Of a DNA stretch of 37,278 nt, positions 9,932-12,723 are shown one piece after another. Position 1 is the first letter of the stretch, and every line of letters begins with the position of its first letter. The stretch comes from Granulosicoccus sp. (GTDB lineage: Bacteria > Pseudomonadota > Gammaproteobacteria > Granulosicoccales > Granulosicoccaceae). Below the pieces are notes generated by a model, which made no database searches, had not been told where the DNA came from, and saw only the letters and a program-made list of their open reading frames with translations. A program made the translations under genes and the position numbers. The DNA is taken from positions 1 to 37,278 of the forward strand of contig JABDKN010000180.1 in the NCBI GenBank assembly GCA_013002205.1, in the 5' to 3' direction.

Positions 9932-10409
9932 TAAAAAGGTGTCCAAATGCTGTTCGTATTTTACGACGACGACATAAGACGGTCTGCTCACCGTCGTCGA
10001 TAAGCTGTTTTCAGACAGGTACGCAAATAACCTGCCGGTTAACCGCTGCGCAACTCGTTGCTGGTCTGATAAATGACTGATTTAAGGGATCTTTACCGGA
10101 GTGCCTGCAGTTACTTGCCATCCGGAAGTAACTGTCTTTCTAACCTGACAGTCCATTGTCCCGCCATTGGCTGAAGCCTGCCAATCGGCGATCACGAGGC
10201 GCATTCGCACGCGCGGACCATTAATAGCATAGTTCAAATAACTGGTCCAAACCTCCTGGTGAGATTTTACAATCGTTGAGAAACAGGTCACTGAACGAGA
10301 TCCAGCGAGTGCCGACAGGAGACTTCCCGTAGTGGCCCAGGACTCAATACGGTTTTAATCCGGATTCGATAGGGACTCAATGCAGAGTCAATCGAGCGTC
10401 AATCCAGCG
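9932..10409. other. Non-coding stretch with phased short repeats at its right end
   Basis: I see no convincing gene here. A 69-codon GTG-initiated frame on the minus strand (10082-10291) lacks motifs. The right end holds the 11-base-period repeats described separately. The stretch lies downstream of the lexA/DUF427/72-aa group and upstream of the hypothetical gene ending at 9530, so a promoter for the latter should lie near 9950-10080; none stands out. Confidence 0.45.
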
Positions 10410-10414
10410 TCAAT
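10343..10414. repeat. Short repeats (C/G)TCAAT with 11-base period
   Basis: The hexamer CTCAAT or GTCAAT starts at 10376, 10387, 10398 and 10409, exactly 11 bases apart, and a further copy at 10343 keeps the same phase. The last units share a longer core (AGCGTCAAT). The array ends over the stop codon of the 72-residue gene. Copies spaced by about one helical turn are typical of protein-binding arrays, but a decayed microsatellite is equally possible. Confidence 0.55.
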
Positions 10415-10628
10415 ACGAAGAGTTGTTAGCCTGATCAGGGTGAATTTCATCGGCAACTTCGTCCGGATCGACCCCGTTTATCAGTAGCACCTCCCTCACC
10501 GTCTCGATATCCTCGATGATCTGCTGTACACGGCCGGGATGGTCGAATTCATTGACATCATTGGTCTTGGGCATGTAGCAGAACGCAGTCTTGAGTGCGG
10601 TCAGTGCCTGTTCATCCAGTGCGGTCAT
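10410..10628 (-). CDS. Small acidic protein downstream of DUF427 and lexA
   Basis: This is a 72-residue protein that I do not recognise. It is acidic and mostly helical by eye (ALDEQALTALKTAF, then VQQIIEDIETVREVLL) and ends in a short polar tail. Its ATG lies inside the 3' end of the DUF427 gene (17-base overlap), a tight arrangement that supports a real, cotranscribed gene. If the lexA promoter drives the group, it would be part of the DNA-damage response. No fold or function can be assigned. Confidence 0.6.
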   Translation of the reverse strand: MTALDEQALTALKTAFCYMPKTNDVNEFDHPGRVQQIIEDIETVREVLLINGVDPDEVADEIHPDQANNSSY

Positions 10629-11016
10629 GCAGTGACCCTCCTGTTGAAAACTGCTCTACGAAATGCGCAGGGTCGAATGCCACGCGCGACCTGATTGCCG
10701 CCAGCTCATCCGGTGCCGACGGGTAGGCCCAGGCACCGTCCAGGATGGTCTCCCCGCCCGGTAGATTTACATCGTAGTACCGAGCCTCGCCCTTCCAGCG
10801 ACACTGGAACCGGGTCGCCGATTCCCGCAGGATTGCCCCCGAGACGTCGTTCAACGGCACATAGGTCACCGCCGCCCGCTCGCCCTCGACCAGTTCCAGG
10901 GCATTTCCGGTCTTCACCACTGGCGTGCCCGAGCTTGTGATGGTGACGAGTTCGTCGATGAATCGTGTGCTCAGGAATCGATCAGGTGCAACGACCCGGT
11001 AACTTTCTCTAATCAT
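10612..11016 (-). CDS. DUF427 domain protein
   Basis: The protein has 134 residues. The DUF427 pattern is clear: a strand with GTPVVKTGNALELVEGE, then YVPLNDVSGAIL, a TRFQCRWKGEARYYDV segment, then AWAYPSAPDELAAIRSRVAFDP. The fold is a small beta-rich barrel. The biochemical role is not established. The start lies 37 bases after the lexA stop and the 3' end overlaps the 72-residue gene, so the three genes probably form one operon. That would make this DUF427 copy SOS-controlled, which is inference from position only. Confidence 0.85.
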   Translation of the reverse strand: MIRESYRVVAPDRFLSTRFIDELVTITSSGTPVVKTGNALELVEGERAAVTYVPLNDVSGAILRESATRFQCRWKGEARYYDVNLPGGETILDGAWAYPSAPDELAAIRSRVAFDPAHFVEQFSTGGSLHDRTG

Positions 11017-11053
11017 GATATCGGTACCACCAGGTTTGACGGGCGAGAGTAAG

Positions 11054-11791
11054 CTAGTAGCTGCGCAACTGTCCTACAAGTACCCCCTGAAAGCTGACGC
11101 GACTCGCATCATATCGCATGACTGACATCGCGCTATTCTCCGGAATCAGTTCCACCGCGCCACTGTGCATTTTTCCAAGTCGTTTCAGCGTAGCCTCCTG
11201 ACCGTCGATCAGCGCCACGACGATATCGCCCGTTTCGGCGGTGTCCTGTTTGCGCAGAATGACCGTATCACCGTCCAGTATGCCGATATCGACCATGGAG
11301 TCTCCACTCACGCGCAATGCATAGCGATCAGGACCGATGAAGAACGCAGCAAGGTCAAGATAGTTGGCATCTTCGATAGCTTCGATTGGCTGACCGGCCG
11401 CAATGCGTCCCAGCAGGGGGATACGGAAATCACCGGTCGTCTGCTCGCTGGGCTCGGCTGGCAGATCCATCGGCTGGCTGATATTTGACTCCGGTACCAG
11501 GTGTGTCAGCGAACCGGCGCGCCTGGGTGCCGGCAGACGCTGTACGTTGGAGGGACGCTCAGGCATGGCCAGTCCCACGATTCGCAGACCCCGCCAGCCA
11601 TTGCCATGACGCTCCAGACGCCCCTTGGCGATCAGCGACTGCACATAACGATGCACCGTTCCCTTGGATTTCAGTCGCAGATTACCGGCCAGCTCAGCAA
11701 TGGTGGGGGCAACGCCTTCCGCCCTGATGTGGCGCTCTATGGCAGCCAGGACACGGGCTTCCAGGTGGGTGAGAGGATTGCTGGACTCCAT
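11054..11791 (-). CDS. lexA: LexA repressor (SOS regulator), long variant
   Basis: LexA represses DNA-damage genes until RecA-stimulated self-cleavage. The N-terminal winged helix (about 8-72) has APTIAELAGNLRLKSKGTVH followed by VQSLIAKGRLER. The self-cleavage site is A132-G133 in LLGRIAAGQPIEA. The catalytic dyad is S165 (RVSGDSMVDIGI) and K203 (ATLKRLG). At 245 residues it is about 40 longer than E. coli LexA, the excess lying in the linker (about 75-120). The ATG has an AGGAGA Shine-Dalgarno 6 bases upstream. It is the first gene of a leftward group with DUF427 and the 72-residue gene, and divergent from the cupin gene. Confidence 0.95.
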   Translation of the reverse strand: MESSNPLTHLEARVLAAIERHIRAEGVAPTIAELAGNLRLKSKGTVHRYVQSLIAKGRLERHGNGWRGLRIVGLAMPERPSNVQRLPAPRRAGSLTHLVPESNISQPMDLPAEPSEQTTGDFRIPLLGRIAAGQPIEAIEDANYLDLAAFFIGPDRYALRVSGDSMVDIGILDGDTVILRKQDTAETGDIVVALIDGQEATLKRLGKMHSGAVELIPENSAMSVMRYDASRVSFQGVLVGQLRSY

Positions 11792-11833
11792 GAACGTTCT
11801 CCTAATGTACTCTCTAAGAATAGAGAACGTTCA
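11791..11833. promoter_or_regulatory. Paired GAACGTTC palindromes, putative LexA operators
   Basis: Two 11-base inverted copies, TGAACGTTCTC (11791-11801) and GAGAACGTTCA (11823-11833), each contain the 8-base palindrome GAACGTTC. Their centres are 33 bases apart, about three helical turns. One copy sits in the lexA promoter spacer and the other over the Shine-Dalgarno and start codon. No E. coli-type CTGT-N8-ACAG box is present. LexA autoregulation is usual, so these are the best operator candidates; direct binding is inference. Confidence 0.65.
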
Positions 11834-11845
11834 GAGAAAATTCAA
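11817..11845 (-). promoter_or_regulatory. lexA promoter (TTGAAT-N17-TATTCT)
   Basis: On the minus strand a -35 box TTGAAT (11840-11845) is followed by a 17-base spacer and a -10 box TATTCT (11817-11822). Transcription should start near 11810, giving a leader of about 19 bases before the ATG at 11791. The upstream GAACGTTC palindrome fills most of the spacer, so bound protein would block polymerase. Confidence 0.7.
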
Positions 11846-11907
11846 CGGTTCTTTGCGCATCTCGCCGATACCCTCAGGGAGAGATTGCGGTATACAGTGG
11901 CGCGACC

Positions 11908-12723
11908 ATGATCAAGCGAAAAGAATACATCAACGATATCAAACAGGGACTCGAGCTACCCTGGTGGTTTACCCACGAAATCCCGGCCCTCAACGACGAT
12001 TTCAACCAGCGTGTCGTCAGTCTTCCCCAGCACGCCGTGTGGCGTTCGACACAGATTGACGGTGTCGATTTGCGTGTGCTGGAGTACGTACCGGGTATCA
12101 CACCCCGCCTCAGCGGGCAGATCCGTCTCGACCCGGCCTGCTCGCCCGCACGCCTGGGCGACAATCCGGATCTGGAGATCCTCGTGCAACGCGGTGAACT
12201 GGAATCCTCGATGGGCGTCGATCCTGCCGGGATGTACCTGCGCCTGCCGTTGTCTCCGGACAGGCACCTGCAGTCTCTGACCTTTCGCTGTACCGTGCCA
12301 CCGGGCAACGATTCCGGTGAAACGGTGAGAAAATCAGCCGAGAAGGAAACGGCCCTGCTGTACCTGGCTGCCGGACAGATGCTGACCAGTGACACAGAGC
12401 AGCGACGACTCGATACGCGGGCAGAGGACCGCTGGCTGCCGGGTCCGGCGACGAGCACCGAGGTTCTGCCCCTGCACGGGCACGGCACCGGCAATGCCAT
12501 GCTGATTCGCTGGAGCGAGCCGGTGGCATTCATTCCTCGACTCGACCCGATGGGCGAAGAAGTTCTGGTACTCAAGGGGTCGCTTTTCGATGCACATGGC
12601 CACTATCCTGCGGGTAGCTGGATACGCAATCCGGTGGCCGCCTGGCAATCGTGGGGCGCGGTGGAAGGCACTGTCGTGTACTACAAAAGCGGACACTTCG
12701 CTGCACCGCTGGAATCGAGGTGA
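11908..12723 (+). CDS. ChrR-type cupin domain protein
   Basis: The protein has 271 residues and appears to hold two cupin-like halves. The second half is clearest: EVLPLHGHGTGNAMLIRW, then EVLVLKGSLFDAHGHYPAGSW followed by IRNP, which resembles the C-terminal cupin of the anti-sigma factor ChrR. The first half has VLEYVPG and LEILVQRGELESSMGVDPAG. The zinc-binding anti-sigma domain of ChrR is absent, so it is a stand-alone cupin, probably a metal-binding protein of unknown role. A TATACA (11891-11896) lies only 11 bases before the ATG, so the transcript could be nearly leaderless; no Shine-Dalgarno is visible. It shares a 116-base divergent region with lexA and runs directly into queG. Confidence 0.75.
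   Translation: MIKRKEYINDIKQGLELPWWFTHEIPALNDDFNQRVVSLPQHAVWRSTQIDGVDLRVLEYVPGITPRLSGQIRLDPACSPARLGDNPDLEILVQRGELESSMGVDPAGMYLRLPLSPDRHLQSLTFRCTVPPGNDSGETVRKSAEKETALLYLAAGQMLTSDTEQRRLDTRAEDRWLPGPATSTEVLPLHGHGTGNAMLIRWSEPVAFIPRLDPMGEEVLVLKGSLFDAHGHYPAGSWIRNPVAAWQSWGAVEGTVVYYKSGHFAAPLESR

Follow-up and report, generated by a model that had tools for sequence, protein, structure and literature searches.

A second LexA in Granulosicoccus with a predicted autoregulatory operator pair of the direct-repeat type

Introduction

LexA-binding motifs have been called stable across broad bacterial groups, with a change of motif being monophyletic for a clade (PMC8565304, PMC3323433). In the passages drawn on here, PMC8565304 gives 17 reported LexA motifs, the direct repeat of the Alphaproteobacteria and a model of LexA evolution by duplication and take-over, and PMC9578287 gives the Caulobacter LexA box as GTTCN7GTTC. 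In P. putida and Xanthomonas two LexA regulons are described, the second LexA recognizing a sequence of its own (PMC9578287, PMC3901139). For Geobacter sulfurreducens, two autoregulated lexA genes and a lexA-imuB-C-polY operon are described (PMC6511836), and the Geobacter motif is listed as the palindrome GGTT-N10-AACC (PMC8565304).

We analysed the promoter of a lexA gene, here lexA2, in a 37,278-nucleotide stretch of DNA from the marine bacterium Granulosicoccus sp. (GCA_013002205.1, contig JABDKN010000180.1), referred to as the window. A second LexA as such is already known elsewhere. Searches of an open-access library turned up no paper describing the GAGWAC repeat (see below) for Gammaproteobacteria, and none on a LexA from Granulosicoccus. 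LexA2 resembles the LexA of Caulobacter and other Alphaproteobacteria in the 11-bp-period direct repeat, the GAAC core (in the window operators a 7/8 match each), a helix of the SK-x-x-(I/V)HR type and its side of the tree. It differs from them in its gammaproteobacterial host, in a half-site extended to GAGWAC, in often having two opposed operators (39/63 loci), one of them forming the promoter spacer, and in a small regulon that, as far as seen, does not include recA. As described for P. putida and Xanthomonas, it has a predicted binding sequence of its own and shares its genome with another LexA. Like the described G. sulfurreducens protein, it appears self-regulated, not bound to recA and tied to a Y-family polymerase, whereas the Geobacter motif is given as palindromic and the bacterial class differs. 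Self-repression at the own promoter, predicted for LexA2, is shared with the E. coli-type SOS system; the CTGT-N8-ACAG box of that system is absent at lexA2, whereas the genome's canonical lexA has it in a 7/8 form. We put the probability that the element is, as predicted, the autoregulatory operator pair of this second LexA at roughly 0.85.

The lexA2 gene and its neighbourhood

The window LexA2 scored 149.6 bits against TIGR00498, above the curated cut-off of 110.95, and its domains were identified by Pfam as PF01726 and PF00717. The residues for self-cleavage are in place (A132-G133, S165 and K203). Over 48 aligned LexA2 rows the alanine was kept in 44, the glycine in 48, the serine in 44 and the lysine in 47; changed cleavage residues were found in five rows (L113, L124, L134, L135 and L136). 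The changes there were Ser to Thr or Ala, A-G to S-G, N-G or E-G, and Lys to Arg (L134). The genomes of L124, L135 and L136 yielded no further LexA, yet the operator was kept.

The sequence-only reading had linked the unusual operator to a long linker. The linker is real (53 aa in the window protein, measured by script), but it was 6–24 aa long in 15 of the 17 measured rows outside the genus (22 more rows were without a measurement), so a long linker does not explain the operator and was rejected as its cause.

In the window, lexA2 adjoins a DUF427 gene and is divergent from a cupin-queG pair; it does not head an imuA-imuB-dnaE2 cluster. A scan of the minus strand from 10400 to 12000 called no terminator-like site, and the DUF427 gene is possibly co-transcribed with lexA2. 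PADLOC returned no match. Several Granulosicoccaceae had SRAP and/or endonuclease III-like genes near lexA2; Pfam identified those of L018, and those of L027, L028, L029 and L035 were identified by eye. At L143 and L146, lexA2 lay near a recA gene, the distance at L143 being some 1.3 kb; recA was confirmed by family search in G087 and by eye for L146. Both genomes also had a canonical LexA.

Table 1. Coordinates of genes and predicted regulatory features. Positions refer to the window unless a locus is named.
Feature	Position	Strand	Details
lexA2	11054..11791	(-)	245 aa; DNA-binding domain of LexA, linker of ~53 aa, S24 peptidase
DUF427 (PF04248) gene	10612..11016	(-)	37 bp downstream of lexA2
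ChrR-like cupin gene (PF12973)	11908..12723	(+)	divergent from lexA2; Pfam
Predicted operator 1	11823..11839	(+)	GAGAACGTTCAGAGAAA = GAGAAC-N5-GAGAAa, 11/12; exactly the 17-bp promoter spacer
Predicted operator 2	11796..11812	(-)	GAGTACATTAGGAGAAC = GAGWAC-N5-GAGWAC, 12/12; over the Shine-Dalgarno sequence
-35 hexamer TTGAAT	11840..11845	(-)	from sequence
-10 hexamer TATTCT	11817..11822	(-)	from sequence
Shine-Dalgarno AGGAG	11799..11803	(-)	within operator 2; from sequence
11-base copy TGAACGTTCTC	11791..11801		
11-base copy GAGAACGTTCA	11823..11833		
Palindrome GAACGTTC	11792..11799 and 11825..11832		centres 33 bp apart
Small MCGG (or M...PWGRR) gene with LexA2 box	L180:2564-2953, L186:2082-2471		aligned
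Small MCGG (or M...PWGRR) gene near lexA2 and polymerase	L133:5078-5500, L368:5840-6280		aligned

Promoter and predicted operators

The features of the lexA2 promoter are listed in Table 1. Two direct repeats in opposite orientation, operators 1 and 2, were found in the 146 bp upstream of the gene, where GAGWAC-N5-GAGWAC scored 12/12 forward and 11/12 reverse; such scores were reached by fractions of 0.00005 and 0.0015, respectively, of 20,000 single-base shuffles. Each operator matched the strict alphaproteobacterial core GAAC-N7-GAAC at 7/8. The absence of a CTGT-N8-ACAG box, noted earlier, was confirmed, the best match upstream of lexA2 (6/8) being at the level of shuffled DNA; the canonical gammaproteobacterial SOS box is thus missing here. 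The promoter had been described as clear. Its hexamers are present on the minus strand at a spacing of 17 bp, but a strict consensus scan called no promoter at this place (8/12 against a threshold of 9/12). Among 49 related loci in which the repeat forms the spacer, the -35 was TTGAAA or TTGAAT in 37, and TATTCT was the commonest hexamer at the -10 place (14 loci).

We propose that a LexA2 dimer would sit on each repeat. On operator 1, between -35 and -10, it would block RNA polymerase, and operator 2, over the start region, would also be held by LexA2. After DNA damage, by what is known of the family, activated RecA would induce self-cleavage at A132-G133 by S165/K203 and so lift repression. 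With the operator doubling as the 17-bp promoter spacer, the repressor design would be a compact one.

Conservation of the direct repeat

Related loci were collected by a search for the peptide motif [KQN]S[KR]G[TS]VHRY, and upstream DNA was read for 63 of them (62 titled as gammaproteobacterial taxa, one as Proteobacteria only). GAGWAC-N5-GAGWAC was present at 11/12 or better on the forward strand in 55 of the 63, on the reverse strand in 42, on either in 58 and on both in 39, many of the loci being closely related, so that these counts are not independent. When spacings from N0 to N12 were tried, any other than N5 gave at most two loci per strand, and shuffled upstream DNA yielded 0.0006 repeats per sequence. 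A chance repeat was rejected on the basis of this spacing specificity together with the conservation over the 63 loci. In 49 of them a repeat (at 10/12 or better) occupied exactly the 17 positions next to a TTG-type -35, with six -10-like bases following, and the forward repeat mostly overlay the ribosome-binding site. Five loci (L098, L101, L102, L104 and L110) had no repeat at 11/12. A LexA from outside the search pattern (SRGVVHRY, G121) had a 12/12 repeat upstream. CTGT-N8-ACAG scored much as in shuffles across the 63 promoters.

The sequence-only reading had placed a paired palindromic operator at this promoter. It was right that two 11-base inverted copies, TGAACGTTCTC and GAGAACGTTCA, lie over the lexA promoter and start, and right about the distance between their centres; the paired arrangement stands, while the unit is a different one. 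That LexA binds two palindromic GAACGTTC sites and through them governs a non-canonical SOS regulon is very improbable, real as both palindromes are. Two GAACGTTC in 37 kb are not rare (0.60 expected; two or more in 10 of 100 shuffles), so the count itself proves little, and the strong evidence for the element is the conservation of the direct repeat. The palindrome forms where GAGAAC happens to precede GTTC. It is not conserved at the promoter, being kept in five of the 63 loci, on which ground it was rejected as the operator unit; in the Granulosicoccaceae subset (L085-L108) it occurred in 3 of 24 loci, against 20 of 24 for the direct repeat at 11/12 or better. The genome-wide scan proposed earlier also spoke against it, as the four other matches to GAGAACGTTCA in the window's own genome all lay within long ORFs. 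Judged by these counts, the conserved unit is the 11-bp-period direct repeat GAGWAC-N5-GAGWAC and not the palindrome.

Relationship to alphaproteobacterial LexA

GAGWAC-N5-GAGWAC contains the alphaproteobacterial LexA core GAAC-N7-GAAC, which was exact in 41 of the 63 related loci. SK/RGTVHRY, the recognition helix of LexA2, is similar to SKSG(I/V)HR of Alphaproteobacteria. A phylum-wide scan matched 102 of 200 genomes and gave 29 loci outside the own genome, of which 26 were examined (L359, L363 and L367 were omitted). Exact GAAC-N7-GAAC was present at all four named alphaproteobacterial lexA promoters (plasmid records) and at 16 of 16 further promoters whose LexA was called alphaproteobacterial by its helix alone; it was found at none of nine LexA with neither helix (one of them without upstream DNA).

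In a careful, unrooted tree of 73 proteins, LexA2 and alphaproteobacterial LexA were separated from canonical gammaproteobacterial and delta LexA with support of 97/92, and LexA2 formed one side of a branch supported at 95/81; four long-branch rows (L134, L139, L339 and L369) had been omitted. In a quick tree that included them, the separation from canonical and delta LexA held (95), but LexA2 was not resolved as one group. Since LexA2 groups with alphaproteobacterial LexA and apart from the canonical gammaproteobacterial one, a recent duplication is an unlikely origin of the two Granulosicoccus LexA.

A canonical LexA in the same genomes

The window's own genome (98.68% complete) encodes two LexA, a canonical one on contig C274 (246 bits) and LexA2 (147 bits). 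Among 27 genomes of the genus, the own one included, LexA2 was found in 26 and a canonical-like match in 24 (scored with the family model for the own-genome copy only); G001, G004 and G025 had no canonical-like match, and G010 had that type alone. Within the Granulosicoccus records, identity in the LexA2 DNA-binding domain was at most 99% (named-genome scan). The promoter of the own canonical lexA has an E. coli-like box, CTGTAAATATACTCAG, at 7/8. The sequence-only reading had suggested an operator that may differ from the gammaproteobacterial norm; LexA2 does not take the place of that norm but is present in addition to a canonical LexA, whose promoter has the E. coli-like box. At G000:C274:11116-13888 the canonical lexA precedes a weakly RecA-like ORF and a weakly Y-family-like one, which we take to be ImuA/ImuB-like; no dnaE2 was noticed adjoining. 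In P. putida, lexA2 heads imuA-imuB-imuC (dnaE2), whereas in the own genome it is the canonical LexA that has ImuA/ImuB-like ORFs behind it.

Eight canonical lexA promoters had SOS boxes of 8/8 (three), 7/8 (three) or 6/8 (two, one of them with little upstream DNA), and none had a GAGWAC repeat above 9/12. The last result bears on whether a regulator other than LexA2 binds the repeats. Canonical LexA or another factor could act on the lexA2 promoter, LexA2 binding being our inference, but we consider this unlikely, given the repeat-free canonical promoters. The motif also tracks LexA2 across lineages, including the 17 of 39 LexA2 genomes outside Granulosicoccus in which no second LexA-family match was found (mostly metagenome assemblies, completeness not given), and the LexA2 helix resembles that of alphaproteobacterial LexA, whose box has the same core.

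A search of 30 genomes located recA in 27. Some of the recA starts were mis-set, but 300 bp were scanned; in the 25 upstream regions read, the LexA2 repeat never scored above 9/12. The own genome, G012 and G023 share an E. coli-like box at recA (CTGAAAATATTTACAG, 7/8), and G017 has one there at 8/8 (CTGTAACTGTTTACAG). Single 7/8 matches also occurred at recA of L310 and L329, whose genomes have no canonical LexA, so 7/8 alone is weak evidence. A general SOS response under LexA2 in its own genome, recA included, is very improbable: the genomes without another LexA would suit it, but the recA regions lack the repeat and in these four genomes carry E. coli-like boxes (with the stated weight of a 7/8 match), and the own canonical LexA has CTGTAAATATACTCAG and the downstream ORFs described above. 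The regulon of the canonical LexA could not be defined by a CTGT-N8-ACAG scan of the own genome, which was too loose (62 sites against 58 in the control).

Predicted targets within Granulosicoccus

Exact GAGWACNTTNNGAGWAC had 16 matches in 15 of the 27 genus genomes, against two for the reversed-pattern control; 15 matches were at lexA2, the sixteenth lay within an ORF of G023, and 12 genomes had none. The looser GAGWACN5GAGWAC gave 65 matches in the same 27 genomes against 39 for the reversed control. By coordinates 18 of these were at lexA2; a nineteenth (G019:C38) belongs to the intergenic region of lexA2, there on a split contig. We read 18 of the other 46: 16 lay within the longest ORF (L307 near its start), and the two outside it were L299 and L306, the latter just before a binding-protein-like ORF. 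No gene was common to these 18. In the own genome, a scan allowing three mismatches gave 52 matches against 56 in the control and no second target stood out, so a role in DNA damage there rests on relatives. A search of the own genome with the LexA2-linked polymerase returned one match, at 28% identity, hence no clear ortholog. The Granulosicoccus LexA2 regulon seems to consist of lexA2, perhaps with the DUF427 gene; weaker targets may lie among the other 28 looser matches or the 2- and 3-mismatch ones. Most likely LexA2 acts in this genus as an autorepressor with a tiny regulon, perhaps lexA2 only.

Predicted targets in other Gammaproteobacteria

In 35 LexA2 genomes outside Granulosicoccus, exact GAGAACN5GAGAAC occurred 67 times in 31 genomes, against five for the control; four genomes had no exact match. 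Seventeen places were away from lexA2. Ten, in ten genomes, were at the start of a gene for a Y-family (Pol IV-like) polymerase, and at all ten promoters the repeat directly followed a TTGA-type -35, with a -10-like hexamer 0–1 bases on. Two further places preceded a small MCGG/PWGRR gene (Table 1). The remaining five comprised two in one 665-aa gene family (L191 and L192), one within an ORF (L193), one at an ORF start (L194) and one among genes without assigned identity (L182). The polymerase gene directly followed lexA2 in at least four loci (L123, L133, L144 and L145) and also on a Methylophaga thalassica plasmid. In lineages with LexA2 alone, the same operator design would be extended to a translesion polymerase.

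We tentatively suggest, at somewhat less than even odds, that a second lineage of LexA, using an operator grammar of the alphaproteobacterial kind, exists within the Gammaproteobacteria and is either of early origin or transferred from Alphaproteobacteria. In some lineages it would be the only LexA, with a minimal damage module of LexA2 itself, the Y-family polymerase and the MCGG/PWGRR protein, and in Granulosicoccus it would persist next to the canonical LexA in a circuit confined almost to itself. If so, the genomes with this lineage would show stages of the take-over model, effected by an incoming lineage and not by local duplication. Because the alphaproteobacterial grammar occurs in Gammaproteobacteria beside a canonical LexA or apparently alone, the model becomes testable in living relatives. 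It would also be a warning that SOS regulons are not predictable from one class-wide LexA box.

The small MCGG/PWGRR proteins had no Pfam or NCBIfam match (L180 and L133) and no PDB match (L180); their MCGG start is reminiscent of SRAP. On the M. thalassica plasmid (NZ_CP143310.1, L368), lexA, a Pol IV gene and a hypothetical gene form a cluster, and the repeat there is weak (10/12). On a Methylobacter plasmid (NZ_CP091426.1, L369), a divergent lexA lies beside umuDC, with a repeat at 11/12 and an exact GAAC-N7-GAAC.
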